Shown piece by piece: positions 28,995 through 44,037 of a DNA stretch of 64,000 nucleotides (position 1 is its first letter; each line of letters begins with the position of its first letter). Made by a program: the position numbers and the translations under genes. The notes under the pieces were generated by a model. The model was given only the letters and a program-made list of their open reading frames with translations. It was not told where the DNA came from and searched no databases. This DNA is from Streptomyces antibioticus (lineage in GTDB: Bacteria > Actinomycetota > Actinomycetes > Streptomycetales > Streptomycetaceae). Where the stretch lies: positions 310,001-374,000 of the forward strand of contig NZ_KQ948426.1 of assembly GCF_001514065.1 (NCBI RefSeq), in the 5' to 3' direction.

Positions 28995-28995
28995 C

Positions 28996-29692: not shown

Positions 29693-29716
29693 AAATATAC
29701 CTTCGGGAATGTATTG
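29693..29716. promoter_or_regulatory. ARE-like operator 1 (receptor/afsA-type intergenic region)
   Basis: Half-sites ATATACCTTC and GAATGTATTG flank a GG centre. The pattern matches the other three copies (AATACCTTC..GAAGGTATT type) and resembles autoregulatory elements bound by butyrolactone receptors. It lies between the receptor-like tetR and the AfsA-type gene. Confidence 0.75.
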
Positions 29717-29803
29717 TAAGTCTCGGCTCGACCGGCGGAAGTCCTGTGCCGGTCTTGTGCCGGTGTTGCTGTCTGCGTGAATCGTTCACTGGGGGTACAG
29801 ACC

Positions 29804-30925
29804 ATGCATCAGCCTGTCGTCACACCTGTCTCCACGCCCATACGCGCCACGGCCGGCTCGACCGCCGTACGAGCGGAATCCCACGGTCCGCTGCTTCTCG
29901 CGCCGGGCCCCGAGGCCCCCGCGGACTCCCCGCACCCGCAGCTCAGCTACCTCCAGCCGGTCCCGCGCCACATGGTGCACCGCGCCGCCATCGCCGAGGT
30001 CTTCCTCACCGACGCCGTCCGCACCGACGAGCACTCCTTCCTGGTCGCCGCCCAGTGGCCGCGCGACCACGCCCTCTACTCGCCGGGCAGCGACGGCACC
30101 AGCGACCCGCTGCTGTTCATGGAGACCATCCGCCAGGCCCTGGTCTACCTCGCGCACGCCTACTACGACGTGCCGCTCACCCACCGCTTCATCGGCTTCG
30201 GCTCGGAGTTCGAGATCACCGACCCGGCCGCCCTGCGCATCGGCGGCGAACCGGTCCCGGTGGTCCTGGAGGCCGAGTGGGCATGGGTCGGCAACCGTCC
30301 GCCGCACCGCTTCGGCATGCGCCTCGACGTCGTCCTCACCGTGGGGGGCCGGGCCTGCGGGCGCGGCGCGCTGCACGTCGTCGCCGTCGACGACAAGCGG
30401 TACGCCATGCTGCGCGGCCGGGGCGCCAAGCCGCGCGGCGTCGCCGTCACCGGCCCGGCCCCGCGCGCGCTGGAGCGGGTGCAAGCGGCCGCGGTGGGCC
30501 GGCTGCGCGCCAAGGACAGCGTGCTGGTGCGCGAACGCACCGACACCCCCTGGCAGTTGCTCATCGACGTCGAGCACCCGATCTTCTTCGACCACCCCAG
30601 CGACCACGTCCCGCTGATGGTCACCCTGGAGGGCTTCCGCCAGCTCGGCCACCTCCTGCTGCACCCTGGCGACATGGCCCGCGGCGCCGGGCACGGCCTG
30701 CTCGGCATGGAGGTCGACTGCCAGGCCTTCGGCGAACTCGACGCCCCCATCGACCTGGTGGTGCGCGAACGGCAGCCCGAAACCGGCTCCGGCACCACCC
30801 GGCTGACCCTGGACGCCGTGCAGAACGGCACCTCGGTCGCCACCTGCCGCACCCTGTGGGGCACCCGGGCGGCGGACGGCACCGCGCACGTGGATCACCG
30901 GGCGCCCGTTTCCTCTACGGCCTGA
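29804..30925 (+). CDS. AfsA-type butyrolactone synthase
   Basis: A 373-residue AfsA/ScbA-family protein with two hotdog-like repeats. The first contains VHRAAIAEVFLTDAVRTDEHSFLVAAQWPRDHALY and DPLLFMETIRQALVYLAHAYYDVPLTHRF. The second contains VERTDTPWQ-like RERTDTPWQLLIDVEHPIFFDHPSDHVPLMVTLEGFRQ. The family condenses a beta-ketoacyl thioester with dihydroxyacetone phosphate to start butyrolactone signals. The ATG at 29804 follows GGGGGT. It is divergent from the receptor-like TetR and converges with the second TetR gene, overlapping it by 31 bp. It is longer than AfsA (about 300) because of an N-terminal extension of about 50 residues. Confidence 0.92.
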   Translation: MHQPVVTPVSTPIRATAGSTAVRAESHGPLLLAPGPEAPADSPHPQLSYLQPVPRHMVHRAAIAEVFLTDAVRTDEHSFLVAAQWPRDHALYSPGSDGTSDPLLFMETIRQALVYLAHAYYDVPLTHRFIGFGSEFEITDPAALRIGGEPVPVVLEAEWAWVGNRPPHRFGMRLDVVLTVGGRACGRGALHVVAVDDKRYAMLRGRGAKPRGVAVTGPAPRALERVQAAAVGRLRAKDSVLVRERTDTPWQLLIDVEHPIFFDHPSDHVPLMVTLEGFRQLGHLLLHPGDMARGAGHGLLGMEVDCQAFGELDAPIDLVVRERQPETGSGTTRLTLDAVQNGTSVATCRTLWGTRAADGTAHVDHRAPVSSTA

Positions 30926-31440
30926 CGCCCGTCCACCGCGTCCCATAGCCCCCGCACCCGCTCGGCCAGTCCGCGCCGTTCCGGATCGGGGGCGGTGTAG
31001 TAGGCGCCCACCAGGATCACGACGGCGAGATCGGCCAGCGACTCCGCGGACAACGCCCTCAAGTCGGCCGGGAGCCGCGGGGGTTCGGGGGCCGACTGGG
31101 CCTCGTCCATCACCAGACGCAGCGCCGCGTTGAACCGTACGTCCGACTCCACGCGCTCCGCGAGGGCGCAGCACAGGGCGCGCAACTGCTCGTTCGCCGG
31201 GAGGTCCGCGTCCTTGTGCCGGGCGAGGAGTTCGTCGACGACCTGGTCGAGGTGGTCGGTGAGGGCCCGCGCCAAGTGCTCCTTGGAGGCGAAGTGGGCG
31301 TACAGGGCCCCCTTGGTCAGCCCCGTGCGGGCCGCCACGTGCTGGAGGTTGGCGCGCGGATAACCGTGCCGCACGAACTCGGCCGCGGCGGCGTCCAGGA
31401 CCAGTTCATGGGTGCGCAGTGAGCGCGCCTGCTTCGCCAT
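30895..31440 (-). CDS. TetR regulator, short pseudo-receptor-like
   Basis: A 181-residue TetR protein with a helix-turn-helix close to the butyrolactone-receptor group (RTHELVLDAAAAEFVRHGYPRANLQHVAARTGLTKGALYAHFASKEHLARA). The ligand domain is about 35 residues shorter than in the receptor at 28996-29676, and the region with the signal-binding Trp is missing. This suggests a pseudo-receptor that binds another ligand or none. It is divergent from the flavin monooxygenase gene with ARE-like site 2 between them. The ATG at 31440 follows AAGGGG; a GTG directly before it is an alternative. Confidence 0.85.
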   Translation of the reverse strand: MAKQARSLRTHELVLDAAAAEFVRHGYPRANLQHVAARTGLTKGALYAHFASKEHLARALTDHLDQVVDELLARHKDADLPANEQLRALCCALAERVESDVRFNAALRLVMDEAQSAPEPPRLPADLRALSAESLADLAVVILVGAYYTAPDPERRGLAERVRGLWDAVDGRQAVEETGAR

Positions 31441-31467
31441 CACGGTCCCCTTCGGCCGATTGCCTCG

Positions 31468-31491
31468 AACAATACCTTCTTGAACGCACTT
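31468..31491. promoter_or_regulatory. ARE-like operator 2 (second tetR/monooxygenase intergenic region)
   Basis: The left half-site AACAATACCTTC is as in the other copies. The right half TTGAACGCAC is degenerate. It is the weakest of the four, but its position 28 bp upstream of the tetR start and 41 bp upstream of the monooxygenase start fits autoregulation. Confidence 0.6.
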
Positions 31492-31531
31492 TTTTTACCT
31501 GATCCTGACAGAGATGACTAGGAGCAGCCCC

Positions 31532-32656
31532 ATGCCCCCCACGACCTCCGCGTTCGACACCATCGCCGGACACGCCCATGCCGCAGACGCCGACCGCCGG
31601 TTGGCGCCCGAGGTGGTCGCCGCGCTGACGGCCTCCGGCCTGGCCCGGCACTTCGTGCCCCGCCGGTGGGGCGGTACGGAAGGCACGTTCACCGCCCTGC
31701 TGCACGAGGTCGCCGGGGTCGGCGAGGCCTGTACGTCGGCCGCCTGGGTCGGCATGCTGTGGGCCGCGCACGGCCGGTTCGCCGCGCTGCTGCCCGAGGA
31801 GGGGCAGCGAAAGGTGTGGGGCGCCGACCCCGACATACGGATATCGGCGGCGCTGATGCCACCGGCCGGACGCGCCGAACCGGCGCCTGGCGGCTGGCGG
31901 TTGACCGGCACCTGGGGGTGTGTGAGCGGCGTGGACAGCGCGGAGTGGGTGCTGGTGGCCGCACCCGTGGCGGACGACGGGGAGACGCGGGTGTTCGCGG
32001 TGCCGGGCGCCGCCGTCGACGTACTCGACACCTGGGACGCCACCGGACTGCGCGGCACCGGCAGCCACGCCGCCGTCGTACGGGACGCCGTTGTCCCGCA
32101 CGAACTCAGCTTTCCCCTGGCGGAGTTGATGCGTGGGGCCACCGCCCCGGACCTCTCCCGCTGTCACACCGCACCCGCCCAGCTGGCCGGTGGGCTGATG
32201 TTCTGCGCGCCCGCGCTGGGCGCGGCCCGTCGGGCGCTGGCGGTGTGGTCGCAGTGGGCAGCCTCCAAGGCCCCCGGCAGCGGGCGTCCGCAGCACGACA
32301 GTGCGGCGGTGCGCGAGACGCTCGCCGTGGCCTCGGCCCACATCGACGCGGCCGGCCTGCTCCTGGAGCGGGCCGCGCACCGCGCCGACACCGAGCCGGT
32401 CACCCCGGCGCTCGTCACCGGCAACCAGCGGGACGCGGCCGTGGCCGCCGGCCTCCTCGCCGACGCCGTGGACCGCCTCTTCCGCACCGGCGGCGCCCAC
32501 ATCCGCGACGCCTCCGGCGAACTCACCCGCCGGTGGCGGGACGTCCACACGGTCGCCTCGCACGGTGTGCTCCGCCTGGAACCGGTCGCCGCCGCCTACG
32601 CCTCCACCGCGCTCGCCGCGGCGGACCGTGCGAGCACGGCCTCCCGCTCCGCGTAG
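31532..32656 (+). CDS. Class D flavin-dependent monooxygenase (acyl-CoA dehydrogenase fold)
   Basis: A 374-residue protein of the acyl-CoA-dehydrogenase/HpaB-HsaA fold with VVAALTASGLARHFVPRRWGGTEG near the N-terminus and a C-terminal helical bundle (DRLFRTGGAHIRDASGELTRRWRDVHTVASHG), the ending typical of two-component hydroxylases such as HsaA and ActVA-ORF5. These use reduced flavin supplied by a separate reductase, which is not present nearby. The ATG at 31532 has AGGAG seven bases upstream, better than ATG 31514. The 3' end overlaps the converging MerR gene by 61 bp. It probably oxidises the pathway intermediate. Confidence 0.85.
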   Translation: MPPTTSAFDTIAGHAHAADADRRLAPEVVAALTASGLARHFVPRRWGGTEGTFTALLHEVAGVGEACTSAAWVGMLWAAHGRFAALLPEEGQRKVWGADPDIRISAALMPPAGRAEPAPGGWRLTGTWGCVSGVDSAEWVLVAAPVADDGETRVFAVPGAAVDVLDTWDATGLRGTGSHAAVVRDAVVPHELSFPLAELMRGATAPDLSRCHTAPAQLAGGLMFCAPALGAARRALAVWSQWAASKAPGSGRPQHDSAAVRETLAVASAHIDAAGLLLERAAHRADTEPVTPALVTGNQRDAAVAAGLLADAVDRLFRTGGAHIRDASGELTRRWRDVHTVASHGVLRLEPVAAAYASTALAAADRASTASRSA

Positions 32657-33072
32657 AACCCGATCTTCCAGTCCAGATAGCGGAGCGTGGCGGCGAACGC
32701 GGCCGCCCGCGGGCGCAGCACCTCCCGGTGCGCCTCCAGCAGTTCGCGGCGGGCGGCGATGGTCGAGTCGCCCGCCCGGTACAGCTCGACGTAGTGGTTC
32801 ATGTTGGCCGGGGACATCCCGGTGCTGCGCAGGTGGTTGAGGAACTCCAGCCAGCGCAGATGGATCGGGCTGTAGGCCCGCACCCCGTACGGGTCCTCCT
32901 CGGCGCCCTCGATCAGCCCCTGCCGCTCGTACCAGCCCAGGGTGTCGGCGTCGAGGCCGCTGATGCGGACGACCTCCTCCAGGGAGTAGGTCTCGGCGTG
33001 GGTGGTGACGTAGGCGGTGGGCCGCTTGCGGTCGTAGCCCGCGTACTCGGTCGTGGTGTCGCTCACGGACAT
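32596..33072 (-). CDS. MerR-family transcriptional regulator
   Basis: A 158-residue MerR-type regulator. The winged helix is at about residues 27-95 (AETYSLEEVVRISGLDADTLGWYERQGLIE, then YGVRAYSPIHLRWLEFLNHLRSTGMSPANM), followed by a coiled-coil dimerisation helix. It has no Cys metal-binding motif, so a small organic effector is likely. The ATG at 33072 follows AAGGATCACC. It lies 40 bp downstream of the carboxylase epsilon gene and is probably the last gene of that ARE-controlled operon. Confidence 0.87.
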   Translation of the reverse strand: MSVSDTTTEYAGYDRKRPTAYVTTHAETYSLEEVVRISGLDADTLGWYERQGLIEGAEEDPYGVRAYSPIHLRWLEFLNHLRSTGMSPANMNHYVELYRAGDSTIAARRELLEAHREVLRPRAAAFAATLRYLDWKIGFYAEREAVLARSAAASAVEA

Positions 33073-33112
33073 GGTGATCCTTCGGTCGGGAGGGTCGGGA
33101 AGGTCGGCGGCT

Positions 33113-33316
33113 TCAGTGGCGCCAGGACGCGGCGGTGCGGTGCCCGGTCAGGGCGGGCCGGTGCCAGGTGGGTGCGGCGCTCCGGGCGGGCGCGGGCTCC
33201 TCCGCGGCAGGCGCCCGCCGGGCCACTTCCAGCAGGACGGCGGTGGCGGCGGCGAGTTCCTCGGGCGACGGGTCGCCGCGCAACACCTTGAGCAGGGGCT
33301 CCTCGGTGCCGCTCAT
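33113..33316 (-). CDS. Acyl-CoA carboxylase epsilon subunit
   Basis: A 67-residue protein with EEPLLKVLRGDPSPEELAAATAVLLEVARR, the conserved N-terminal motif of actinobacterial AccE/PccE epsilon subunits, and a Trp-containing basic C-terminus. Epsilon subunits stabilise the alpha-beta carboxylase complex. Its ATG overlaps the TGA of the beta-subunit gene (ATGA), so they are made in equal amounts. Confidence 0.88.
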   Translation of the reverse strand: MSGTEEPLLKVLRGDPSPEELAAATAVLLEVARRAPAAEEPAPARSAAPTWHRPALTGHRTAASWRH

Positions 33317-34905
33317 ACCGGCTGGTTCCCGTGCTTGCGGGAGGGCAGGTCGGCGTGCTTGGCCCGGAGCATCGCGAGCGAACGGACGAGCACGGCCCGG
33401 GTGTCACGGGGATCGATGACGTCGTCGACCAATCCGCGCTCGGCGGCGTAATAGGGGTGCATGAGCTCGGACTTGTACTCCTTGATACGACGCTCGCGCA
33501 CCGCCTCCGGATCGTCGGCGGCGGCGATCTCCCGCCGGAACACCACGCCCGCGGCGCCCTCGGCCCCCATCACGGCGATCTCGTTGGTGGGCCAGGCGAG
33601 GGCGAGGTCGGCGCCGATGGAACGCGAGTCCATGACGATGTAGGCGCCGCCGTAGGCCTTGCGCAGCACCAGGGAGATACGCGGCACGGTGGCGTTGCAG
33701 TACGCGTACAGGAGCTTGGCCCCGTGCCGGATGATCCCGGCGTGCTCCTGCCCGACACCCGGCAGGAACCCGGGGACGTCCACCAGGGTGACCAGCGGGA
33801 TGTTGAAGGCGTCGCAGAACTGCACGAACCGCGCGCCCTTCTCAGAGGCGGCGATGTCCAACACCCCTGCGGTGGCGGCGGGTTGATTGGCGACGATGCC
33901 GACGACATGCCCGTCGAGCCGGGCCAGCGCGCACACCAGGTTGGCGGCCCAACTGGCCTGCACCTCGAAGAAGTCGCCGTCGTCGACGATCTCCTCGATG
34001 ACGCGATGGATGTCGTAGGCCTGGTTCGGCTCGGCGGGCACCAGGTCGAGCAAGGCCTCGCAGCGCCGGTCGGGGTCGTCCGAGGGCGTTTCGTACGGCG
34101 GGAGTTCACGGTTGTTGGCGGGCAGCAGGGACAGCAGATGCCGCACGTCCTCCAGACAGCTCGCCTCGTCGTCGTAGGCCGCGGCGGCGACGCCGGAGAC
34201 ATCGGCGTGCACGTCGGCACCGCCGAGGCCGTCCTGGCTGACCTGCTCGCCGGTGACGGTGCGGACGACGTCGGGGCCGGTGATGAACATCTGGGAGATG
34301 CCGCGCACCATGAAGACGAAGTCGGTCAGCGCGGGCGAGTAGGCGGCACCGCCGGCGCAGGGCCCGAGCATCACGCTGATCTGCGGGAGGACGCCGGAGG
34401 CGGCGACGTTGCGGGTGAAGATGCCGCCGTATCCCGCGAGGGCGGAGACGCCCTCCTGGATCCGGGCGCCCGCCCCGTCGTTGAGACTGACCAGCGGCGC
34501 CCCCGCCGCCAGGGCGAGGTCCATCACCTTGTGGATCTTGGTGGCGTGGGCCTCGCCGAGGGCGCCGCCGAAGATGCGGAAGTCATGGGCGTAGACGAAG
34601 ACGGTCCGGCCGTGCACGGTGCCCCACCCGGTGACGACACCGTCGGTGTAGGGGCGGCGGGCCTCCAGGCCGAACCCGGTGGCCCGGTGCCGCCGCAACG
34701 CCTCGACCTCGGTGAACGAGCCCGGGTCCAGGAGGAGTTCGATGCGCTCCCGGGCGGTGAGCTTGCCGCGGGCGTGCTGCTGGTCGGTGGCGCCGGGGGC
34801 GGGGCCGTCGTGGGCGAGCTCGCGGAGGAGGTGCAGTTCGGCGAGGCGGGTGCGGGTGGTGTCCGGTGGGGGTTGGGGAAGGGTGCGTTCTTCCATCACG
34901 GTCAT
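33313..34905 (-). CDS. Acyl-CoA carboxylase beta subunit (carboxyltransferase; PccB/AccB type)
   Basis: A 530-residue biotin-dependent carboxyltransferase with the crotonase-like double domain: GGSLG-type region HDFRIFGGALGEAHATKIHKVMDLA, acyl-CoA oxyanion loop AGGAAYSPALTDFV, second-half biotin site region FCDAFNIPLVTLVDVPGFLPGVGQEH and KAYGGAYIVMDSRSIGADLALAWP. The C-terminus KHADLPSRKHGNQPV is nearly identical to Streptomyces PccB. It makes methylmalonyl- or malonyl-CoA with an alpha subunit encoded elsewhere. The ATG at 34905 follows AGGATGG; ARE-like site 3 lies 20 bp upstream, so extender-unit supply appears signal-controlled. Confidence 0.93.
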   Translation of the reverse strand: MTVMEERTLPQPPPDTTRTRLAELHLLRELAHDGPAPGATDQQHARGKLTARERIELLLDPGSFTEVEALRRHRATGFGLEARRPYTDGVVTGWGTVHGRTVFVYAHDFRIFGGALGEAHATKIHKVMDLALAAGAPLVSLNDGAGARIQEGVSALAGYGGIFTRNVAASGVLPQISVMLGPCAGGAAYSPALTDFVFMVRGISQMFITGPDVVRTVTGEQVSQDGLGGADVHADVSGVAAAAYDDEASCLEDVRHLLSLLPANNRELPPYETPSDDPDRRCEALLDLVPAEPNQAYDIHRVIEEIVDDGDFFEVQASWAANLVCALARLDGHVVGIVANQPAATAGVLDIAASEKGARFVQFCDAFNIPLVTLVDVPGFLPGVGQEHAGIIRHGAKLLYAYCNATVPRISLVLRKAYGGAYIVMDSRSIGADLALAWPTNEIAVMGAEGAAGVVFRREIAAADDPEAVRERRIKEYKSELMHPYYAAERGLVDDVIDPRDTRAVLVRSLAMLRAKHADLPSRKHGNQPV

Positions 34906-34924
34906 GAGTCCATCCTGCCCTCTT

Positions 34925-34948
34925 TAAATTCCTTCGTGAAGGTATTTT
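34925..34948. promoter_or_regulatory. ARE-like operator 3 (upstream of the carboxylase operon)
   Basis: Half-sites AAATTCCTTC and GAAGGTATTT around a GT centre match as an inverted repeat at 9 of 10 positions. The core is identical to site 4 at 44014-44037. It sits directly upstream of the carboxylase beta gene. Confidence 0.8.
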
Positions 34949-35011
34949 AACGGCTGTTTGCGAAACCGGTCCAAGTCCGGTGCGCCGAAAACGCCGGTTC
35001 CCCGCACCCAC

Positions 35012-35058
35012 CCAGGGGCGCGGGGAACTGCGCGACCAGCCACGACGAACCCGCAGCT
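35012..35058. repeat. Dispersed GC-rich element, copy C (plus orientation)
   Basis: It shares the core GGGGCGCGGGGAACTGCG then CGACCAGCC with copies A and B, and ends with the ACGAACCCGCAG found in copy A. It lies between the carboxylase operon promoter and the 3' end of the exporter gene. Confidence 0.85.
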
Positions 35059-35069
35059 GAAGAACCGAC

Positions 35070-36500
35070 CTACTCACCGCCCTTCTTCGCGACCCGAGGC
35101 AGCAGCACCGCCGTACCCACGGCCGTGACCAGCAGCATCACCACGCACGCCACGAAGCTCGTGTCGAAGCCTCGCTGGAAGTGCCCGGTGTCCGCGATCA
35201 GCGCGCCGAACGCCGCCACCGCGATGCAACTGCCCACCTGCCGGAAGGTGTTGAGCACCGCCGCCGCCGTACCGGCCCGCTCGCCCTCCACGTTCTCCAG
35301 GATCGCCGCCGTCAGCGACGGCACCGCCAGCCCGCCGCCCAGGCCGATCGGGACCAGCAGCAGCACCGGAATCCAGTACGACGTCGACGAGGTGACCGTC
35401 AGCATCAGCAGCGATCCCGCCGTCATCACCAGCTGCCCGATCGTCATCGGCACCCACGCGCCCTTGCGGGCCGCGAGCTTCACGCCCGCCATGTTGACGA
35501 CGGAGATCAGCGCGCACATCGGGATGAACATCGCGCCGGTGCTGACCGGGGAGGCGCCGCGGACCTGCTGGAAGTACATGCCGAGCAGGAAGATCGCGCC
35601 GTAGAAGACCGCGTTGATGGTGAAGCCGGCCGCGAGGCAGACCAGGACCGTGCGGTTCTTGAAGATGCTCAGCGGCACCATCGGCTGCTCACGCCGCGAC
35701 TGCGTCATTACGAACACCGCGATCGCGACCGCGGCGAGCGCCAGCGTGCCCAGCACGTCCACACTCGTCCAGCCCGCGCGGCCGCCCTCGATCACGGCGT
35801 ACGTCAGACCGGCCAGGGACGCCACCACCGACAGCTGGCCGACCAGGTCGACCGGTGCCGACCGGCGCGGCGAGGGGGTGATGCGGGTCAGCAGGGCGAG
35901 ACCGAGGGCGCCGACCGGGAGGTTGAGGTAGAACACCGCACGCCAGCTCAGCCCGCTGGTGAGCATGCCGCCGATGACCGGCCCGACCGCCACGGCCACG
36001 GAACCGGCGGCCGTCCAGATCGCGATGGCCCGCGCCCGCTTGCCGGGGTCGGTGTAGGTCTGCCGGATCAGCGCGAGCGAGGCCGGGACCATGAGGGCCG
36101 CCGCGCCGCCCTGCACCATGCGGGCGCCGATCAGCGTCCCGAGGTTGGGGGCGATTCCGCAGGCCAGGGAGGCGACGGTGAAGGAGGCGAGGCCCCAGGC
36201 GTAGGCGCGGCTGGCGCCGATCCGGTCCGAGAAGGTACCGGCCGACAGCATGAACGCGGCGAACATCAGGGTGTAGCCGTCGACGATCCACTGGAGGTCG
36301 GCCATCGTGCCGCCCAGCGAGTGGGAGATGGCCGGGAGGGCCACGTTGACGACCGAGCCGTCGAGGGAGATGACGAAGAAGGCGAGCAGGGCGGCGGCGA
36401 GGACGGTGGTGGGGGAGGTGGACCGGGGAGCGGCGGGCGACGCACCGACCGATTCGGCAGAGCGCCGATCGGTCCGCGCGGGCCGGGTCAGGATGGCCAT
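35070..36500 (-). CDS. DHA2-family (14-TM) MFS exporter
   Basis: A 476-residue drug:H+ antiporter of the EmrB/QacA type with about 14 membrane helices. Motif C-like AVAVGPVIGGML and the early motif VVNVALPAISHSLGG with DLQWIVDGYTL are hallmarks of the family, which exports antibiotics and dyes. The ATG at 36500 follows AAGGAG. In this locus it is the likely exporter and self-resistance determinant for the pathway product. A 540-bp repeat-filled gap separates it from the tautomerase gene upstream. Confidence 0.92.
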   Translation of the reverse strand: MAILTRPARTDRRSAESVGASPAAPRSTSPTTVLAAALLAFFVISLDGSVVNVALPAISHSLGGTMADLQWIVDGYTLMFAAFMLSAGTFSDRIGASRAYAWGLASFTVASLACGIAPNLGTLIGARMVQGGAAALMVPASLALIRQTYTDPGKRARAIAIWTAAGSVAVAVGPVIGGMLTSGLSWRAVFYLNLPVGALGLALLTRITPSPRRSAPVDLVGQLSVVASLAGLTYAVIEGGRAGWTSVDVLGTLALAAVAIAVFVMTQSRREQPMVPLSIFKNRTVLVCLAAGFTINAVFYGAIFLLGMYFQQVRGASPVSTGAMFIPMCALISVVNMAGVKLAARKGAWVPMTIGQLVMTAGSLLMLTVTSSTSYWIPVLLLVPIGLGGGLAVPSLTAAILENVEGERAGTAAAVLNTFRQVGSCIAVAAFGALIADTGHFQRGFDTSFVACVVMLLVTAVGTAVLLPRVAKKGGE

Positions 36501-36546
36501 GGGATCTCTCCTTGGAGGAAGGGGTGGGGGGAGGCGAGGATCGGGG

Positions 36547-37060: not shown

Positions 37061-37269
37061 CGGCGGCGGCTGAGTTCGGCGAACTCCGGGTTCGTGCCGA
37101 GCACTCCGCCCTCGCCCCAGCGGTTCTGCGGGATCTCCTGGATGTAGACGGTGATCTTGTCGAGGGGCGCCCCGATGACGCGGTGCACGGTCGCGGTGAG
37201 CTCCTCGATCAGCTCCTGGCACTTCTCGTCGGTCTGGTTGGGCCAGGTGGTCATGGAGAGGATGGGCAT
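37039..37269 (-). CDS. 4-oxalocrotonate tautomerase-family protein
   Basis: A 76-residue tautomerase. Pro2 becomes the catalytic N-terminal Pro after Met removal (MPILSMTTWPNQTDEKCQ), and ITVYIQEIPQNRWGEGG matches the family C-terminal part. Such enzymes interconvert enol and keto forms. The ATG at 37269 follows AAGGAG. It lies 61 bp downstream of the SDR gene on the same strand, so they are probably co-transcribed. The last residues (RRRAAPVDA) come from a minisatellite unit. Confidence 0.88.
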   Translation of the reverse strand: MPILSMTTWPNQTDEKCQELIEELTATVHRVIGAPLDKITVYIQEIPQNRWGEGGVLGTNPEFAELSRRRAAPVDA

Positions 37270-37330
37270 GACGAAGCTCCTTGTGGTGTACGGGGGTTGA
37301 GGGTCGAGCGAGCTGAAGGGCGGCGGCGGG

Positions 37331-38143
37331 TTACAGGCCGGCCGAGGCTCCGCCGTCGAGGGTGAGGGCGGCGCCCGTGATGTGGCGGGCGGCGGGCGAG
37401 AGGAGGAAGGCCGCGACGCGGGCCACGTCCACCGGGTCGGCCAGCCTGCCGAGCGGGGTCTGCGCGGCGACCTGGGCCGTGACCTCCACCGCGGTGGCGC
37501 CGGTGCGGTCGCCGATCGTCTTGGCGATCTCGTCCCAGAGGGGCGTACGGACGGCACCGGGGTCGAGGACGTTGACCCGGACGCCGGAGCGGCCGAGGTC
37601 CTTCGAAACCGCCTTGGCGAAGGCGGCGAGGGCGGCGTTGACCGCGCTGTTCACCGGGAAGAGCGGGTCGGGGTCCTTGCGGAAGACGCCGCTGACCAGC
37701 ACGACCGAGCCGCCGTCACCTTCGGCCAGCGGTCCGGCGAGCGCCCGGGTGAGCCGTACGGCGCCCATCAGCTTGCCGTTGAACGTGGCCTGCCACATCG
37801 CGTCGTCGGCTTCGGCGAGCGGGGCGAGCGGACCGTCCCCTGCGGTGTGCACCAGGCCGTCCACCCGGCCGAGCTCGGCGAGCAGGGCGGCGACGGTGGC
37901 GTCGACCGAGGCGGCGGAGTTGATGTCGGTCTCGTAGGTCACGAGCCGCCCCGCGCCGCCCGTGCGGGCGTCGATCTCCTGCCGGGTCCGCTCCAGGCGG
38001 CCCGCGTCCCGGCCGAGCAGCACGACAGTGGCGTCCGAGCGGGCGAGCTCCTCGACGACGGCCGAGCCCATGCCGCCGGTCGCGCCGGTGACGACGATGA
38101 CGGGGGCGAGGGGGGTGAGGGGAACAGCGGGGGCGGCGTTCAT
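37331..38143 (-). CDS. SDR-family protein lacking the catalytic Tyr and Lys
   Basis: A 270-residue classical-SDR fold protein. The NAD(P)-binding motif TGATGGMG is at residues 19-26, NNAG-like HTAGDGPL follows, and the ending GAALTLDGGASAGL is typical. The active-site region reads LVSGVFRKDPDPLFPVNSAVNAALAAF: Ser151 is present, but the usual YxxxK is NSAVN (Asn165, Asn169). It may be a divergent dehydrogenase with another acid, a dehydratase-like enzyme or a binding protein. The ATG at 38143 follows GAGGACG. A pair of TetR-3 operators lies about 120 bp upstream. Confidence 0.85.
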   Translation of the reverse strand: MNAAPAVPLTPLAPVIVVTGATGGMGSAVVEELARSDATVVLLGRDAGRLERTRQEIDARTGGAGRLVTYETDINSAASVDATVAALLAELGRVDGLVHTAGDGPLAPLAEADDAMWQATFNGKLMGAVRLTRALAGPLAEGDGGSVVLVSGVFRKDPDPLFPVNSAVNAALAAFAKAVSKDLGRSGVRVNVLDPGAVRTPLWDEIAKTIGDRTGATAVEVTAQVAAQTPLGRLADPVDVARVAAFLLSPAARHITGAALTLDGGASAGL

Positions 38144-38263
38144 GGCGTCCTCGATTCACGGGCACGAGACGGAGGTTGACGCTGAGTCAGATACCACCGG
38201 CGGCCCGATCGGAGCGGGTCCGGCCTGGTGATGAAGACGGTAGCCTGGTTCGACAGGCCGCGC

Positions 38264-38301
38264 AACCATCTAGTTGGTTTTTAAGAACCAACTAGATGGT
38301 T
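38264..38301. promoter_or_regulatory. TetR-3 operator pair, left
   Basis: Two 16-bp sites, AACCATCTAGTTGGTT (38264-38279) and its reverse complement AACCAACTAGATGGTT (38286-38301), have centres 22 bp apart and form one large palindrome. They lie upstream of the SDR-tautomerase genes and downstream of the third TetR gene. The same site recurs in the same spacing at 39014-39051. Confidence 0.85.
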
Positions 38302-38330
38302 GGTCCCTTGCCCCACCCCCTCCGACCAGC

Positions 38331-38362
38331 AAAAAGGGAGCCCGGAAAATCTCCGGACTCCC
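38331..38362 (-). terminator. Hairpin terminator of the third tetR gene
   Basis: Arms GGGAGCCCGGA (38336-38346) and TCCGGACTCCC (38352-38362), with one mismatch, are followed on the minus strand by five T residues (38335-38331). It lies 26 bp after the tetR stop and shields the SDR promoter region. Confidence 0.75.
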
Positions 38363-38387
38363 TCGGCTCACCCAGGCCCGACCGACG

Positions 38388-38990
38388 TCAGACCGCCCCC
38401 TGGAGCACGTTGTCGATGATCGAGTGCCCGTGCGCCACCACGCTCGCCCGCAGCAGCGCCCACCCGCTCTCCGTCTCCCCGTCCGGCCCCAGCATCAGCC
38501 GGCGCTGCTGCGGCACGATGAACGGCCAGGACGCGATGCCGATCAGGGCGATGAGCACCCGGGCGGCCGTCGCGGGGTCGTCGACGCCGAGCGCGAGGCT
38601 GAGCGCGGCCGTCTTGTGGACGTAGTACGCCTCGCGCTCCTTCTCGTCCGGGATCGGCTTGTCGCGATAGTGCAGGCCCTCCCAGGCCAGCAGCCGTACG
38701 AGGTCGGACTGGCGGTGGTAGTCGAAGACCTCGCCCACGTAGGACCGCAGCCCCTCCTCCGAGACGGGGATGGGCACCGCCTCCGACATATGGGCGTAGA
38801 CCTTGGTCATCACCGCGGCGAACAGGGCTTCCTTGTTGCCGAAGTAGGCGTAGATCCGCTGCTTGTTGACGCCGGAGCGCTCGGCGATGCGGTCCACGCG
38901 CGCACCCGCGAGCCCGTGCTCGGAGAACTCCGCCTCGGCGGCTTCCAGAAGCTTGGCGCGGGTCGCCTGCGCCTTGGGTGTCTCAGCCAT
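38388..38990 (-). CDS. TetR-family regulator 3 of the biosynthetic locus
   Basis: A 200-residue TetR regulator with helix-turn-helix AQATRAKLLEAAEAEFSEHG, then VDRIAERSGVNKQRIYAYFGNKEALFAAV, and a C-terminal domain (RVLIALIGIASWPFIVPQQRRLM) typical of TetR_C regulators of exporters and enzymes. The ATG at 38990 is followed closely by the domain. Four identical-type 16-bp operators flank the gene, two upstream (between it and the divergent hotdog operon) and two downstream of its 3' end (SDR promoter), which makes it the likely binder of these sites. Confidence 0.88.
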   Translation of the reverse strand: MAETPKAQATRAKLLEAAEAEFSEHGLAGARVDRIAERSGVNKQRIYAYFGNKEALFAAVMTKVYAHMSEAVPIPVSEEGLRSYVGEVFDYHRQSDLVRLLAWEGLHYRDKPIPDEKEREAYYVHKTAALSLALGVDDPATAARVLIALIGIASWPFIVPQQRRLMLGPDGETESGWALLRASVVAHGHSIIDNVLQGAV

Positions 38991-39013
38991 GGGAACAGCG
39001 TAGTCCACTGCAC

Positions 39014-39051
39014 AACCAACTGGATGGTTCAGAAAAACCAACTAGATGGTT
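39014..39051. promoter_or_regulatory. TetR-3 operator pair, right
   Basis: AACCAACTGGATGGTT (39014-39029) and AACCAACTAGATGGTT (39036-39051) have centres 22 bp apart, the same spacing as the left pair. They lie between the divergent tetR gene (start 38990) and the AfsA-like hotdog gene (start 39159). Confidence 0.85.
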
Positions 39052-39158
39052 GCACTCTCGTCGCGACTCCTCTACGGTCTTTCACATCGGCCCCGCCACC
39101 CCGGAAAATCCGGTGCGGAAGAGGCGGCAGGCCCCTCATGTCAGCTGAGGAGAAACGC

Positions 39159-39956
39159 ATGTCAGCCACAGCCTCCCTCCGGACCCTGCTGCTCGTCGGT
39201 GACCGTTTCGCCGGATTCGCCGCCCAGCAGGACGTCCTCACCGTCAGCCAGTTCATCGAGGAGATGCGCCTCGGGGTGTACTCCTGGGACAGCCGCCCGG
39301 TCCGGGTCCGCGCAGGTCAGGGCGTCACCGCCGAGGACGCGGAGATGGTCAGGGACGCGGCCCTGCTGCTCGGCCTCGGGGACCGTCTCGACCTCGACTT
39401 CCGGGCGCCGGCGCTGGCCGCCCGCGGCGAGGCCCACAAACACATAGCCAGCAACACCCTGATAGCCGACCTCCGGCGGGACGGGGCGGACCTCTTCTCC
39501 GCCACGCTCCGGGTCCACAACGACAACGAGCTGCTCATCGACCACCAGACCGGCGAGCACGTCCAGGGCATGGTCGCCGTCGAGGCGGCCCGGCAGATGT
39601 TCCTCGCGGTCAGCGAGCGCTACCACGCCTGCCGCTACCTCGACCGCTCGTACTACTACGTCATCGAGTCGCTGAACACCGACTTCGAGAACTTCCTCTT
39701 CCCCGTCGACGCCACGATCGTCTACCACTCGCTGCGCGCCGAACTCGACGACCCCGACCGGCTGTCCTTCGCCGCGGAGATCTCCCTCCACCAGGCCGGC
39801 CGCCGCGCCTCCATCACCACCGTCACCTACACGGCCTTCGACGCCCCGGTCATCGAGGCCAAGGAGCACCGCCGGGCCCAGTTCGCCGTCGAGCACACGG
39901 TGCGCAACGCACGCGTGACGATCACGCCCACGGAGCCGGTGCCGGCCGCCGTCTGA
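39159..39956 (+). CDS. AfsA-related hotdog-domain protein
   Basis: A 265-residue protein. The central motif LLIDHQTGEHVQGMVAVEAARQMFLAVSERYHA matches the AfsA-family hotdog signature (HV.GMV..EAARQ). The C-terminal half (FLFPVDATIVYHSLRAELDDPDRLSFAAEISLHQAGRRASI) looks like the second strand set. The first ~65 residues are not AfsA-like. It is shorter than the AfsA-type protein at 29804-30925. Such paralogues occur in butenolide, furan and methylenomycin-type pathways, where they join a beta-ketoacyl thioester to a small sugar phosphate; that role here is inference. The ATG at 39159 follows GAGGAG. Confidence 0.82.
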   Translation: MSATASLRTLLLVGDRFAGFAAQQDVLTVSQFIEEMRLGVYSWDSRPVRVRAGQGVTAEDAEMVRDAALLLGLGDRLDLDFRAPALAARGEAHKHIASNTLIADLRRDGADLFSATLRVHNDNELLIDHQTGEHVQGMVAVEAARQMFLAVSERYHACRYLDRSYYYVIESLNTDFENFLFPVDATIVYHSLRAELDDPDRLSFAAEISLHQAGRRASITTVTYTAFDAPVIEAKEHRRAQFAVEHTVRNARVTITPTEPVPAAV

Positions 39957-40011
39957 GCACCGTACGAACCCTTCAGAAACGCACGCACTCACTCACCCAA
40001 GGAGAACCGTC

Positions 40012-40641
40012 ATGTCCGCTTCCGCCGCCCTCATCACCGCCACCGAGCTGTTCGCCAAGCCCGAGCAGATCGACGCCGTCGCCGAGGCCTGGCAGGCCCA
40101 CAACGACGCGTCCGGCTTCGACGGCCGCATCCTCTACCGCGGGCTGGAGAGCAACTCCGTCCTCGAACTCGCCCCGCTGGAGAACGGTTTCGAGCAGATG
40201 GAGGAGCTGCGCGCCGACTGGTGGAAGCTGTGGGAGGCCGTCGGCCCGCTGGGCGAGGGCGACTTCCGCCGCCAGTTCCTCCAGTTCGTCGAGGCACCCA
40301 AGCCGGCCGCCGGCGCCCTGCCCGACACCCACTACGTGCAGATGCGGCACGTCGAGGTCGTGCCGCGGGTCTACCGGCAGTACCGCGCCTGGCGCGAGGA
40401 GACCATCTTCGACGTCGTGCGCACCACGGACGAGGTCAAGAGCTTCCAGGCGTTCCACTCGCTGGCCAGCACCGAGCCCGGCGTGATGTTCGTGTCCGGC
40501 TTCGACGCCGACCCCGCGAAGTACATGGAGGCCTTCACCTCCCCGCGCTACCAGCAGATCGTCCGCGAGGCGGGCGACACCTACATCACCGGAGGCGACA
40601 ACGGCCTGTACACCCGCATCTACGAGCGCGTCACCGCCTGA
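40012..40641 (+). CDS. Unknown protein, ABM/dimeric alpha-beta-barrel-like
   Basis: A 209-residue soluble protein with two similar halves. Each is strand-helix rich with patterns (ITATELFAKPEQIDAVAEAWQAHND; YVQMRHVEVVPRVYRQYRAWREETIF) reminiscent of antibiotic-biosynthesis-monooxygenase or NIPSNAP-like ferredoxin folds, but no residue-level motif proves this. It follows the hotdog gene by 55 bp with AAGGAG before the ATG. Operon context suggests a cyclase or monooxygenase step. Confidence 0.65.
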   Translation: MSASAALITATELFAKPEQIDAVAEAWQAHNDASGFDGRILYRGLESNSVLELAPLENGFEQMEELRADWWKLWEAVGPLGEGDFRRQFLQFVEAPKPAAGALPDTHYVQMRHVEVVPRVYRQYRAWREETIFDVVRTTDEVKSFQAFHSLASTEPGVMFVSGFDADPAKYMEAFTSPRYQQIVREAGDTYITGGDNGLYTRIYERVTA

Positions 40642-40774
40642 CGCCCCTCGCTCCTCCCCTCCCACGGCCGGCCGCGGAACCCCTGTGCACTGAGCGCGGC
40701 GTTGCGCGGCCGGCCGTCTCCACTCCCTCACGTCCACCCGCCTCTCCACCTCGCGTCCGCGAAGGAGTACCGAC

Positions 40775-41668
40775 ATGACCCTCTCCCCCGTGGCCCCCGC
40801 GCCCGTCGCGGCCGCGCCCATGACCCGGACCTACGACCTGAGCGTCACCACCCAGGGCCCGCTCTACCCGCCGAGCGAGATCGTCGACGAGAACGGCGAC
40901 TTCGTCGTGATCGGCCGCGTCAACCGGCCCGGCCCCGACGGCAACACCGTCTCCGCGTGGGGCGGCGCGGTGGTCTCCCCGGACAGCCCGCTGCCGCCGC
41001 TCGGCCAGAACCTGCCGTACGACATCGTCCGCGAGCTCGACCTCACCGACCCGACCGGCCCGGACGCCCAGGTCCAGCTGTTCACGCTGCCCCTCCCCCT
41101 GCCCTGCAACAACTACCCGATGCTGTTCGCCCCGGAGCAGCGCCCCGACGCGCACGACGTGCGCCGCCCGAGCTACCCGCTGCACGGCGCGCCCATCCCG
41201 GACCTGCGCGAGGAGGACGGCCCGAAGGTGCGGGAGCCGATCACGCTCGGCCAATGGACCAAGGCGCGCGGCCAGTTGGAGGTGCACGTGCCGGCGCACC
41301 GGCGCGGCGCCGACTTCTCCTTCGCCTTCACCGGCCTGATCCCGGACAGCCTCTACACGGTCATGTCGCTGCGCGAGCACGACCTGGACCCGGCCGGCCC
41401 GACCCGCCCCGGCCCGCTCGGCGTGCCGAACGCCTTCATCAGCGACAGCAACGGCATGGCCCACTACCGGGCGACCCTCCCCAACCCCTTCCCGGCGCCG
41501 GGCACGCCCGGCGCCAACCGGGTGATCAACGTGGTCGTGCTGTGGATGAGCTACCAGCAGAACTACGGCGGCGCCATCGGCCACTTCGGTCTCGGCGGCG
41601 ACATCCACGCCCAGCTGAAGCTCCAGGGCCCGAGCTTCGGCGAGTTCACGACCCGGCCCGCCAACTGA
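40775..41668 (+). CDS. Unknown beta-rich protein of the hotdog/KAS III operon
   Basis: A 297-residue protein with an Ala/Pro-rich start, no signal peptide and mainly beta-type sequence (TRTYDLSVTTQGPLYPPSEI; FVVIGRVNRPGPDGNTVSAWGG; HFGLGGDIHAQLKLQGPSF). A single Cys is seen in PCNNYPM. I do not recognise a family. The ATG at 40775 follows GAAGGAG. It lies between the ABM-like protein and KAS III, 37 bp upstream of the latter, so it is very likely part of the same pathway. Confidence 0.65.
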   Translation: MTLSPVAPAPVAAAPMTRTYDLSVTTQGPLYPPSEIVDENGDFVVIGRVNRPGPDGNTVSAWGGAVVSPDSPLPPLGQNLPYDIVRELDLTDPTGPDAQVQLFTLPLPLPCNNYPMLFAPEQRPDAHDVRRPSYPLHGAPIPDLREEDGPKVREPITLGQWTKARGQLEVHVPAHRRGADFSFAFTGLIPDSLYTVMSLREHDLDPAGPTRPGPLGVPNAFISDSNGMAHYRATLPNPFPAPGTPGANRVINVVVLWMSYQQNYGGAIGHFGLGGDIHAQLKLQGPSFGEFTTRPAN

Positions 41669-41705
41669 CCGTCCCGATGAGCCACTTGCCCCCTGAGGAG
41701 AGACC

Positions 41706-42803
41706 ATGGACGACAACCACCCGATCGGCATCATCGCCACCGGCTCCTACCTGCCCGCGACCGTCGCCCACAACGACGAGGTCGGCGCCGCGGCGGGGGT
41801 GACCGCCGAATGGATCGAACGCAAGACCGGCATACGACGACGACACCGCGCAGCCCCGCACGAGGCCACCTCGGACCTGGCTGCGAACGCGGCCCGGCAG
41901 GCGTTGCTCCAGGCGGGCCTGACGGCCGACCAGATCACCTACGTCGTGGTCGCCACCTCCACCCCCGACCACCCCCAGCCCGCCACCGCCGCCATCGTCA
42001 CCGACCTCATCGGGGCGCGCCGGGCCGCCGCCTTCGACGTCAACTCGGTGTGCAGCGGCTTCCTGTTCGCGCTGACGGCCGCCGACCGCATGCTGCGCGC
42101 CGAGCCCCGCACGGCGTCGGGGCAGGGACCGTACGCCCTGGTCATCGGTGCGGACATCTACTCCCGCATCCTGGACCCGGCCGACCGCAAGACGGCCATC
42201 CTGTTCGGCGACGGGGCGGGGGCCGTCGTCCTCGGGCCGGTGCCGGCCGGGACCGGCGGCATCACCACCAGCCTGACGACCCGCGGTGACCAGCACCGTC
42301 TGATCAGCGTCCCGGCCGGCGGCAGCAGGCGTCCCGCGTCGGCGGACACGGTCGCGCAGGGCGCGCACTGGTTCACGATGGACGGCCGCGGAGTGCGCGG
42401 CTTCGTGCACGACAACCTGCCCGTCGCCATCGGCGAGTTGCTGGCCAAGGCCCGCGTACCGGCCCGTGCGGTACGGCACTTCGTCCCGCACCAGGCCAAC
42501 GGCGTGATGCTCGCCGAGGTGTGGCCCGCGCTCGGCCTCGACACGGCCCGGATGCATCTGGCCCTCGCCCACCACGGCAACACCGGTGCCGCGTCCGTCC
42601 CGATCACCCTCGACGTGGCGCACCGCCGGGGTCTGTTCACCGAGGGCGACCTGACGGTGCTGTCGGCCTTCGGGGGCGGCATGTCGGTCGGCTCGGCCGT
42701 GTTCCGCTGGGCCCCGACGGCCCACGCCCGCCCGGCACGGGCCCAGGCTCCGGCGGAGGCGAGCACGGACGTGAGGGAGCCGGTACTGGCCGGCGCGAGG
42801 TAG
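41706..42803 (+). CDS. Beta-ketoacyl-ACP synthase III family enzyme
   Basis: A 365-residue thiolase-fold enzyme with the full KAS III triad: Cys116 (NSVCSGFLFAL), His262 (FVPHQANGVM) and Asn292 (HHGNTGAASVP). The dimer-interface motif KTGIRRRH is present. It has a C-terminal extension of about 25 residues beyond the FabH core. It probably condenses an acyl-CoA starter with a malonyl or methylmalonyl unit, or acts as an acyltransferase as some pathway KAS III enzymes do. The ATG at 41706 follows GAGGAG. No dedicated acyl carrier protein is present nearby. Confidence 0.92.
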   Translation: MDDNHPIGIIATGSYLPATVAHNDEVGAAAGVTAEWIERKTGIRRRHRAAPHEATSDLAANAARQALLQAGLTADQITYVVVATSTPDHPQPATAAIVTDLIGARRAAAFDVNSVCSGFLFALTAADRMLRAEPRTASGQGPYALVIGADIYSRILDPADRKTAILFGDGAGAVVLGPVPAGTGGITTSLTTRGDQHRLISVPAGGSRRPASADTVAQGAHWFTMDGRGVRGFVHDNLPVAIGELLAKARVPARAVRHFVPHQANGVMLAEVWPALGLDTARMHLALAHHGNTGAASVPITLDVAHRRGLFTEGDLTVLSAFGGGMSVGSAVFRWAPTAHARPARAQAPAEASTDVREPVLAGAR

Positions 42804-42888
42804 GCCCGCCCCCACCCGCCGCACCCCTACGGAGAAACCCCCCACGTGCACGGACCACCGACCCCAGCGACGCCCCTCAGGAGCAGCA

Positions 42889-43101
42889 GTGATCACCCTG
42901 CAGAAGACAAACGGCCTCACCGGCACCCCCCGGCTCCCCCGCCTGCACGTCCTGGCCAACGGCACCCTGGCCTCGGTGCAGCACGGCGGCACCTGGTACC
43001 TGCTCAGCACCGGCCCCGAGGCACGGCGGCCCGTCCTCCACCTCGCGGGGGACGCGGACGACGCGGAGCTGGAGCCGCACATCTGCCGCAGCATCGACTG
43101 A
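42889..43101 (+). CDS. Small unknown protein at the end of the KAS III operon
   Basis: A 70-residue protein with a GTG start at 42889 preceded by AGGAG. The sequence (LPRLHVLANGTLASVQHGGTWYLLSTGPEARRPVLHLAGDADDAELEPHICRSID) has no signal peptide, no DSL carrier-protein motif and one Cys. It is the last gene of the plus-strand operon and ends 10 bp before a strong bidirectional hairpin. The function is unknown; it could be a small accessory protein. Confidence 0.6.
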   Translation: MITLQKTNGLTGTPRLPRLHVLANGTLASVQHGGTWYLLSTGPEARRPVLHLAGDADDAELEPHICRSID

Positions 43102-43111
43102 CCCCGCACAC

Positions 43112-43155
43112 AGGTGGAGGGGCGGAGGGCCCGGACGGCCTCCGCCCCTCCACCT
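43112..43155. terminator. Bidirectional terminator hairpin
   Basis: Arms AGGTGGAGGGGCGGAGG (43112-43128) and CCTCCGCCCCTCCACCT (43139-43155) are perfect 17-bp complements. They end both the plus-strand KAS III operon and the minus-strand phosphatase gene. Confidence 0.9.
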
Positions 43156-43164
43156 CTGTCGTCC

Positions 43165-43968
43165 TCAGCAGAGCGGCAGGGCGCAGCCCCCCGAGCAGCC
43201 CTCGGAGTGCTCGTCGCGGCCCATCGACCAGCAGGCGAGCGCGCACCCGGAGACGGCGGCCGCGGCCCGGTCCGCGCGCCGGGCGAGATAGCCGCGTACG
43301 ACGGGGTCGTCGCCGACGCCACGGGGGTGGCCGACGCAGTCGAGGAGCGGGAAGTCGGAGGGGTGGTCGCCGTAGGCGAAGCAGTCGCGCGGGTTGACCC
43401 CGGAGTGCTCGGCGAGCATCCGCAGGGCCGCCGCCCGCTTGCCCTCACCGATCACGGGCTCGGCCAGCTCACCGGTGTAGCGGCCCTCGTGCACGACGGG
43501 CGAGGAGCACAGGACGTGCCGGGCGCCGACGCGCTCGGCGACCGGGTCGAGGCAGGGCGGGAAGGACCCGGAGACCAGCACGATCTCGGCGCCCGCGGCG
43601 CGATGCCGGTTCAGCTCGTCGACGGTCGAGGCGATGAAGAACCCGGGGTCGGCGGAGGCGAGGGCGAACCACTCCCGCCCGAGCGCGGCCATCTCCTCGA
43701 CGCTCTCCCCGGCGTAGGAGCGGTAGTAGGCCCGGTTCACGTCCTCCCGGAGCACCCCGGCGGCGGAGCGGCCCTTGAGGTCGGCCTCGACGAGCCGATA
43801 CCGGTGCTCCCCTTCCTCGCCGAAGCGCCGTACGAGCTGGAAGCGCAGGAACTCGAACATGCTCTTGCAGTTGATGAGCGTCTCGTCGACGTCGCAGAAG
43901 ACCAGGTAGGCCGGCCGGTGCGCCGTGTCGACCCGCACCTCGCCGCCTATCTCCGCTACCACCGTCAT
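43165..43968 (-). CDS. HAD subfamily IB phosphatase with Cys-rich C-terminal tail
   Basis: A 267-residue HAD hydrolase: motif I FCDVDETLIN, motif II VLVSGSFPPCLDPVAE, motif III Lys in IGEGKRAAAL and motif IV YGDHPSDFPLLD, the SerB/IB type. After the domain, a tail at residues 240-267 has Cys242, Cys246, Cys258, Cys262 and Cys267, a regular pattern not usual for the family. The ATG at 43968 follows GGGGGAGG. ARE-like site 4 lies about 46 bp upstream, so it appears to be in the same regulon as the butyrolactone genes. Dephosphorylation of a phospho-butenolide intermediate is a plausible role. Confidence 0.88.
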   Translation of the reverse strand: MTVVAEIGGEVRVDTAHRPAYLVFCDVDETLINCKSMFEFLRFQLVRRFGEEGEHRYRLVEADLKGRSAAGVLREDVNRAYYRSYAGESVEEMAALGREWFALASADPGFFIASTVDELNRHRAAGAEIVLVSGSFPPCLDPVAERVGARHVLCSSPVVHEGRYTGELAEPVIGEGKRAAALRMLAEHSGVNPRDCFAYGDHPSDFPLLDCVGHPRGVGDDPVVRGYLARRADRAAAAVSGCALACWSMGRDEHSEGCSGGCALPLC

Positions 43969-44013
43969 TCCCAGAACCTCCCCCTCGGGGCCCGGCACGG
44001 TACCGGGCACTAA

Positions 44014-44037
44014 AAAAATTCCTTCGTGAAGGTATCA
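44014..44037. promoter_or_regulatory. ARE-like operator 4 (upstream of the HAD phosphatase)
   Basis: Half-sites AAATTCCTTC and GAAGGTATCA around a GT centre; the 17-nt core ATTCCTTCGTGAAGGTA is identical to site 3, 9 kb away. It can serve the minus-strand phosphatase and possibly the plus-strand VOC gene at 44112. Confidence 0.8.

Follow-up and report, generated by a model that had tools for sequence, protein, structure and literature searches.

A probable furan hormone system of the mmf/mmy type, scattered over four conserved operators and with an added carboxylase target, in Streptomyces antibioticus

The window analyzed here is a stretch of 64,000 nucleotides from the 10.15-Mb genome of Streptomyces antibioticus (contig NZ_KQ948426.1, positions 310,001 to 374,000), whose closest relatives, as judged by the genes of the locus, are Streptomyces. 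It contains four near-identical palindromes, each close upstream of a start codon, that are candidate operators of a hormone receptor. Site 1 (29696 to 29715) lies between TetR1, an MmfR-type receptor on the minus strand (28996 to 29667, with an alternative start at 29676), and a plus-strand AfsA-family synthase of phosphorylated butenolides of the MmfL/ScbA type (29804 to 30925; PF03756; NF041195, 309.8 bits). Site 2 (31471 to 31490) separates the minus-strand regulator TetR2 (30895 to 31443) from a plus-strand class-D flavin monooxygenase homologous to MmfH (31514 to 32656, with its start at 31514 or 31532; PF08028; HsaA-like). Site 3 (34927 to 34946) stands upstream of a presumed minus-strand operon encoding an AccB-type acyl-CoA carboxylase beta subunit (33313 to 34905; PF01039; 7w5u, E = 1.7e-274), an acyl-CoA carboxylase epsilon subunit (33113 to 33316; PF13822) and, as its final gene, an NmlR-like MerR regulator (32596 to 33072; PF13411; NF041849 under its cut-off). 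Site 4 (44017 to 44036) precedes a minus-strand HAD-IB phosphatase (43165 to 43968; TIGR01490; with a match in locus L166), a homologue of both MmfP and SPOA0339. The gap between site and start codon is shortest at AccB (21 bp) and longest at AfsA (88 bp). As predicted from these positions, the regulon is four transcription units and not a continuous 15 kb, the span given to it in a preliminary description of this DNA: none of the genes that separate site 3 from site 4 carries such a site, and one of them, TetR3, has palindromes of its own.

The same letters, ATTCCTTCGTGAAGGTA, occur at 34928 (site 3) and 44018 (site 4), with the variants ATACCTTCGGGAATGTA at 29697 (site 1) and ATACCTTCTTGAACGCA at 31472 (site 2). 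A loose form of the pattern gave nine strand matches in the window, compared to a mean of 2.53 and a maximum of 7 in 100 shuffles. When a 20-bp pattern derived from the window's own four sites was run over the entire genome at up to three mismatches, it matched five places, namely the four sites and one place within a coding open reading frame (ORF), and the same pattern read backward matched one place on the forward and two on the reverse strand. In eight genomes (our own and seven reached via related loci) this pattern found 32 of the 32 expected sites, plus six stray places and one fifth site, in the LBL genome, which amounts to 0 to 2 other places per genome (backward controls, 0 to 2 per strand). 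A genome-wide regulon extending beyond the locus was rejected on the grounds of the sole stray place at up to three mismatches of the 20-mer, although weaker targets could be missed by such a scan. A looser first genome scan had marked one zero-mismatch place (C13) and four single-mismatch places (C2, C8, C11, and C14) elsewhere. C13 and C11 fall within ORFs and the other three fall outside ORFs of at least 80 amino acids (aa) with a third-position GC content above 0.85; in the stretches around all five, nothing scored above 3.4 by the matrix introduced below.

That matrix was built from 16 sites of other mmf-type loci, none of them from the window's clade, and it is not a wholly independent test because those sites were located by the consensus TACCTTCNNGAAGGTA. 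It puts the four sites at ranks 1 to 4 in the window (37.8, 26.6, 23.0, and 13.2), with the next best at -0.8 and the top of 40 simulated windows at 8.0. Across nine loci, the cores of sites 1 to 4 are invariant at 19, 18, 17, and 16 of 20 columns, respectively, compared to 0 to 4 of 38 columns per flank (counts that omit roughly five columns adjoining each core). Between Streptomyces and Kitasatospora, the 20-bp cores hardly change, and the flanks vary. At the most distant locus, that of Kitasatospora GAS204B, eight regulon genes encode proteins of 49 to 84% identity, and one base is changed across a 28-bp stretch at site 1; in strain GKU 895, site 4 lies on a separate contig. Departures from perfect symmetry are conserved too, each site keeping its own asymmetry across genera, which fits the presence of embedded promoter elements. 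A TTGAAA-16-TATTGT promoter-like pair encloses and overlaps site 1, which extends over the spacer into the second hexamer, and site 3 overlaps the TAAAAT of another promoter-like pair. The palindromes reported in the preliminary description are therefore confirmed as real, conserved, and nearly restricted to the locus.

The class of hormone is best approached through the receptor. TetR1 scores 189.9 bits against NF041196 (cut-off, 150), and its nearest solved relative is 6srn/7ky1 (E = 2.3e-55, with AvaR1 at 3e-25 and CprB at 7e-17), a TetR protein that we take to be MmfR. Over the aligned stretch, a single letter distinguishes 6srn/7ky1 from the receptor encoded on an S. anthocyanicus plasmid (L103), which is taken to be SCP1-like. 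The receptor tree places the window receptor with that protein in a clade of 25 rows (support, 99/96); the three further ScbR-type proteins of the genome stand apart from it and are long-branched in a tree rooted at its midpoint. Three residues that presumably contact the furan are kept in the window receptor and in nearly the whole of its clade (Tyr85 and Gln130 in 25 of 25 rows and Tyr144 in 22 of 25, the other three having Phe); these residues occur in none of the 24 rows of the TetR2 clade and in none of the three other above-cut-off ScbR-type proteins of the genome. TetR2, at 109 bits under the NF041196 cut-off of 150, falls into the MmyR clade and carries none of the three; it is an MmyR-like pseudo-receptor and not a second receptor. 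The synthase groups with MmfL-type proteins, and the ScbA-type protein encoded on C12 of the genome lies apart from them. L072 (a fragment), L074 (a 35% match without context), and L070 (the same locus as L079) were excluded from counts and trees; L073 was excluded from the receptor and synthase trees and retained in the HAD tree; and L066 and G011 represent one strain.

Because the receptor is nearest to 6srn/7ky1, belongs to the MmfR clade, and keeps the pocket residues, the signal is most likely a furan of the methylenomycin-furan type (2-alkyl-4-hydroxymethylfuran-3-carboxylic acid [AHFCA]) rather than a butyrolactone. A classical gamma-butyrolactone system would have its receptor grouping with ScbR/ArpA-type proteins, and no such grouping was found in a comparison with the genome's three ScbR-type proteins. 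A further mark of such a system would be a dedicated butenolide-phosphate reductase, a role that the short-chain dehydrogenase/reductase at 37331 to 38143 might or might not fill. The earlier proposal of one signal acting over the locus may stand insofar as one operator family covers the AfsA, monooxygenase, phosphatase, and carboxylase units, but its assignment of that signal to the butyrolactone type is most likely wrong.

All five proteins of the mmf/mmy system of S. coelicolor SCP1, which has methylenomycin autoregulatory response element (MARE) operators, have homologues in the window: MmfR, MmyR, MmfL, MmfH, and MmfP counterparts lie within 50 kb, the span used in PMC6335953, with the HAD assignment shared with a killing-type cluster described below. 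A MARE-type palindrome is present at the receptor/synthase promoter, and palindromes of the same form occur on the SCP1-like plasmid, with TACCTTCCCGCAGGTA between receptor and AfsA (L103:7724) and TACCTTCCCGAGGGTA before a TetR gene taken as MmyR (L103:10979). The genes of that plasmid, to which we assigned mmf names by order and homology, run receptor, AfsA, acyl-CoA-dehydrogenase-family protein, HAD, and TetR. AfsA, monooxygenase, and HAD are contiguous there, whereas in the window TetR2 and the monooxygenase point away from each other, a distance of about 11 kb sets the HAD apart, and the monooxygenase and the HAD each have their own operator. The window counterparts of mmfL, mmfH, and mmfP form separate transcription units and not one run, and in sister loci such as L079 to L081 and L085 TetR2 likewise stands between the genes; the run is an arrangement and not a requirement for a cassette of the mmf/mmy type. 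The window adds the AccB-epsilon-MerR operon, and none of the AvrD-type and other genes beside the plasmid cassette was seen in its annotated 28- to 46-kb part. The scl system of S. sclerotialus (SclM1 to SclM5) has the same five-gene set with four proposed autoregulatory elements (PMC13307308, PMC6335953), but it controls a named biosynthetic cluster, whereas the targets added in the window are the carboxylase operon and the phosphatase. Fourteen genomes with all five mmf-type genes inside 50 kb have been listed (PMC6335953). Within the window's own genome, the C12 ScbR/ScbA-type locus shares the AfsA and receptor families, an adjoining accB, and a related promoter element, but its receptor belongs to another clade and lacks the pocket residues.

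The enzymes point to the same cassette. With the MmfH and MmfP homologues of the SCP1-like plasmid as queries, the window monooxygenase and the window HAD are the best matches in the genome (276.6 versus 137.5 bits and 141.7 versus 90.5 bits, respectively). Monooxygenase relatives at E <= 1e-60 occur in 62 of 199 genomes of the genus, and the 14 best-scoring loci after the orthologue in G011 were read over 20 kb each; in this survey, as in those of related and embedded-cluster loci, the best non-overlapping matches per locus were considered. A palindrome stands beside an MmfR-like receptor in 13 of the 14, and a HAD lies near the monooxygenase in most of the sister mmf loci. None of the 14 has an AccB-epsilon-MerR operon behind a palindrome; L077 holds a 69-aa AccB-like match, and in L087, the sole locus without a receptor, AccB lies about 6 kb from the monooxygenase.

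Within the window's clade, AccB and epsilon are found downstream of site 3 in seven of eight related loci, although the AccB of L062 is divided between two frames. The protein is of the AccB rather than the PccB type, and the genome encodes two further AccB-type paralogues at 78%. We suggest that the operon probably supplies malonyl-CoA, and it is in this guarded form that the precursor supply envisaged by the preliminary description is retained. An accB of 78% identity lies also within the C12 ScbR-type locus (L091). The LBL genome offers another candidate target: its fifth, perfect site (L126:8538-8557; G203:C7:224538) ends 27 bp short of the GTG that comes first in frame in a nonribosomal peptide synthetase (NRPS) gene, whose 2537-aa ORF encodes two adenylation domains, one condensation domain, and one ketoreductase domain. 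Here the hormone could have become connected to a megasynthase only recently. By eye, the ORF that directly precedes this site appears transposase-like.

Between sites 3 and 4 lies an embedded cluster in which a matrix scan of the window found no operator at any of the following genes. On the minus strand are a major facilitator superfamily exporter (35070 to 36500; PF07690), a 4-oxalocrotonate-type tautomerase (37039 to 37269; PF01361; SPOA0340 homologue, 46%), a short-chain dehydrogenase/reductase (37331 to 38143), and the separate regulator TetR3 (38388 to 38990; PF00440, TetR_C_21). On the plus strand are AfsA2, a single AfsA hotdog protein (39159 to 39956; PF03756, 60.5 bits; SPOA0342 homologue, 34%), homologues of SPOA0343 (40012 to 40641; 53%) and SPOA0341 (40775 to 41668; 59%), and a beta-ketoacyl-ACP synthase III (KSIII; 41706 to 42803); a 70-aa ORF follows, and the run from AfsA2 to this ORF spans 39159 to 43101. 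The two proteins of 40012 to 41668, which are 87 to 99% identical to those of seven relatives, matched nothing in Pfam or NCBIfam, and sequence searches of the PDB gave no convincing relative. The cluster was dropped as part of the regulon, since it carries no matching site. At the other end of the locus, an inositol-monophosphatase-like gene occupies 28182 to 28994 on the minus strand.

Homologues of five proteins from the 15 kb of the window, the HAD (SPOA0339) among them, stand together on the megaplasmid of Ruegeria pomeroyi DSS-3 (identities of 59, 53, 46, 38, and 34%), a marine bacterium in which the cluster is needed for killing competitors (PMC7426152). The numbers SPOA0339 to SPOA0343 were assigned by order, product, and the description in that paper, the old tags being absent from the record. 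Six non-killer insertions in the cluster fell into SPOA0342 (three), SPOA0341 (two), and SPOA0344 (one), and SPOA0339 to SPOA0343 are cited at 1 to 6% of the proteome (PMC7426152); homologues of SPOA0341, SPOA0342, and SPOA0343 occur together in the window. The 40775-to-41668 protein is present in 7 of 199 genus genomes sampled, our own and G011 included. In G071, G134, G062, and G155, it forms one run with homologues of the 40012-to-40641 protein, the tautomerase, AfsA2, and the HAD, and G074 has a looser version; at these five loci the palindrome has only three-mismatch matches, two each in G071 and G134, and in both genomes one of the two falls within the gene of the tautomerase. While the DSS-3 cluster is flanked by LysR regulators, the window clade has the phosphatase split off under an operator of the furan-receptor type and a KSIII added. 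Four palindromes of the form AACCANCTNGNTGGTT flank TetR3, two on each side (38264, 38286, 39014, and 39036, ending at 39051), with eight strand matches at up to two mismatches compared to a shuffle mean of 0.36. Because TetR3 has this palindrome set of its own, separate control is probable for the remainder of the embedded cluster, and because the HAD of the window clade has its own site-4 promoter region, the furan receptor appears to hold the single HAD step. In L156 and L158 (G071 and G134), about 13 kb separates the killing-type cluster from a monooxygenase of 39 to 42% identity, and the interval holds only a three-mismatch palindrome and no match to a receptor; given this arrangement, the monooxygenase and killing-type modules may have an older association.

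Taken together, we consider it probable that the locus is a scattered furan (AHFCA) hormone system of the mmf/mmy type with four operators and an added carboxylase target. By analogy to mmf/mmy and scl (PMC13307308, PMC5625687, PMC6335953), an MmfR-type repressor, probably together with TetR2, would sit on the four operators near the promoters of receptor and AfsA, of TetR2 and monooxygenase, of AccB-epsilon-MerR, and of the HAD phosphatase. At low cell density, the receptor would keep the four promoters shut, and basal AfsA, HAD, and monooxygenase activity would yield some furan, with AfsA coupling a beta-ketoacyl thioester to dihydroxyacetone phosphate (DHAP) and the phosphatase and monooxygenase completing the molecule; a pathway of AfsA-type condensation with DHAP, phosphatase, and flavin monooxygenase has been proposed (PMC7037778). 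Past a threshold, the furan would release the receptor but not TetR2, so that synthase, receptor, TetR2, monooxygenase, phosphatase, and carboxylase would climb together in a positive feedback, until the pocket-less TetR2 re-closed the same sites in a later shut-off. The output would be the carboxylase operon, with its probable malonyl-CoA, and a phosphatase shared with the embedded AfsA2/KSIII pathway. The hormone would in this way gate precursor supply and the dephosphorylation of a diffusible product.

Several observations weigh against this interpretation. AfsA alone cannot separate furans from butenolides. The furan-system matrix gives the C12 ScbR-type promoter (L091:7711) a score of 24.2, so that there may be cross-talk with a butyrolactone receptor, and the idea from the mismatch scan that the motif is absent from the promoters of other receptors was partly dropped. 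Site 2 scores weakly (13.2 bits) yet is conserved, and no promoter-like pair was found in the short stretches searched at sites 2 and 4. In Streptomyces sp. Act143 (L064:11080-11789), accB and epsilon are gone while the operator, an apparent accB start, and merR are retained; the system can thus do without the carboxylase. If the system were instead of the classical gamma-butyrolactone (ScbR/ArpA) or the butenolide type, with the monooxygenase and HAD making a butenolide and not a furan, it would accommodate the C12 element and the fact that NF041195 and NF041196 include butyrolactone systems. A phosphorylated butenolide is considered the common intermediate of AfsA-type signals, and a phosphatase is needed for SAB butenolides too (PMC7756379). 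We nevertheless find such a system improbable, as the receptor groups with MmfR, apart from three ScbR-type proteins without the pocket residues, the synthase stands apart from the C12 ScbA-type protein, and the operators tie in the MmfH and MmfP homologues. Chance palindromes, or palindromes serving another purpose such as RNA structure or termination, can be set aside almost completely: palindromes with the core are found in coding DNA as well, but the shuffles, the positions in eight genomes, the conservation of core over flank, and the matrix ranking rule out a chance origin, a search of 28000 to 46000 found no Rfam family, and the four short stretches scanned held no terminator-like site.

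The phosphatase is the least settled part of the cassette. In the HAD tree, a 20-row group (99/99) splits three ways without resolution into window HADs (8), killing-cluster HADs (4), and sister-mmf HADs (8), and the MmfP of the SCP1-like plasmid falls outside this group, among other mmf loci, which also weighs against the main interpretation. With the branch order unsettled, the HAD cannot be upheld as simply MmfP. The dephosphorylation step of the preliminary description keeps its operator, but since the HAD groups equally with killing-cluster phosphatases, its role in signal making is less sure and may lie in the embedded pathway besides or instead. That it is only the embedded killing-type phosphatase, with another phosphatase handling the AfsA product and site 4 serving pure output control, is a serious possibility that we hold to be somewhat the weaker one: in the four Streptomyces genomes with the complete run, a HAD adjoins AfsA2 and is 51 to 56% identical to the window HAD, versus 38 to 51% for mmf-locus HADs, yet a search of the genome with the MmfP homologue finds the window HAD first, and in most of the sister mmf loci read a HAD lies near the monooxygenase. 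A single phosphatase serving both AfsA enzymes would account economically for these data. Rather unlikely, in our estimate, is a pair of overlapping regulons in which some sites (e.g., 2 and 4) belong to TetR2 alone or are shared out between the two TetR proteins by differing preference. The recognition-helix letters of TetR2 nearly equal those of the receptor by eye, TetR2 adjoins site 2, and the per-site asymmetries are kept across genera; MmfR and MmyR have been proposed to bind one motif independently (PMC13307308). A single matrix fits all four sites, however, and no computation separates them by regulator.

Systems of the mmf/mmy type are already known; for a scattered arrangement in which four operators include one at a carboxylase operon, as for the locus itself, we found no description in the open-access literature searched. 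The furan hormone system proposed here would link hormone sensing to control of an acyl-CoA carboxylase and to a gene set homologous to a killing cluster, and in LBL the same operator has been placed before a large NRPS gene. We further speculate, though we think it unlikely, that acyl-CoA carboxylation and dephosphorylation, as individual steps of an embedded antibacterial AfsA2/KSIII pathway akin to the Ruegeria killing cluster, have come under the furan receptor, with the quorum signal activating a pre-made phosphorylated product and TetR3 controlling the remainder. If true, a quorum signal would switch the last activating dephosphorylation and not a whole cluster. The product of the killing cluster (PMC7426152) could be sought in a genus with routine natural-product work. 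The locus would thus represent a small private hormone regulon of four promoters, one receptor, and one pseudo-receptor, whose positions are conserved between Streptomyces and Kitasatospora and which is almost completely testable.

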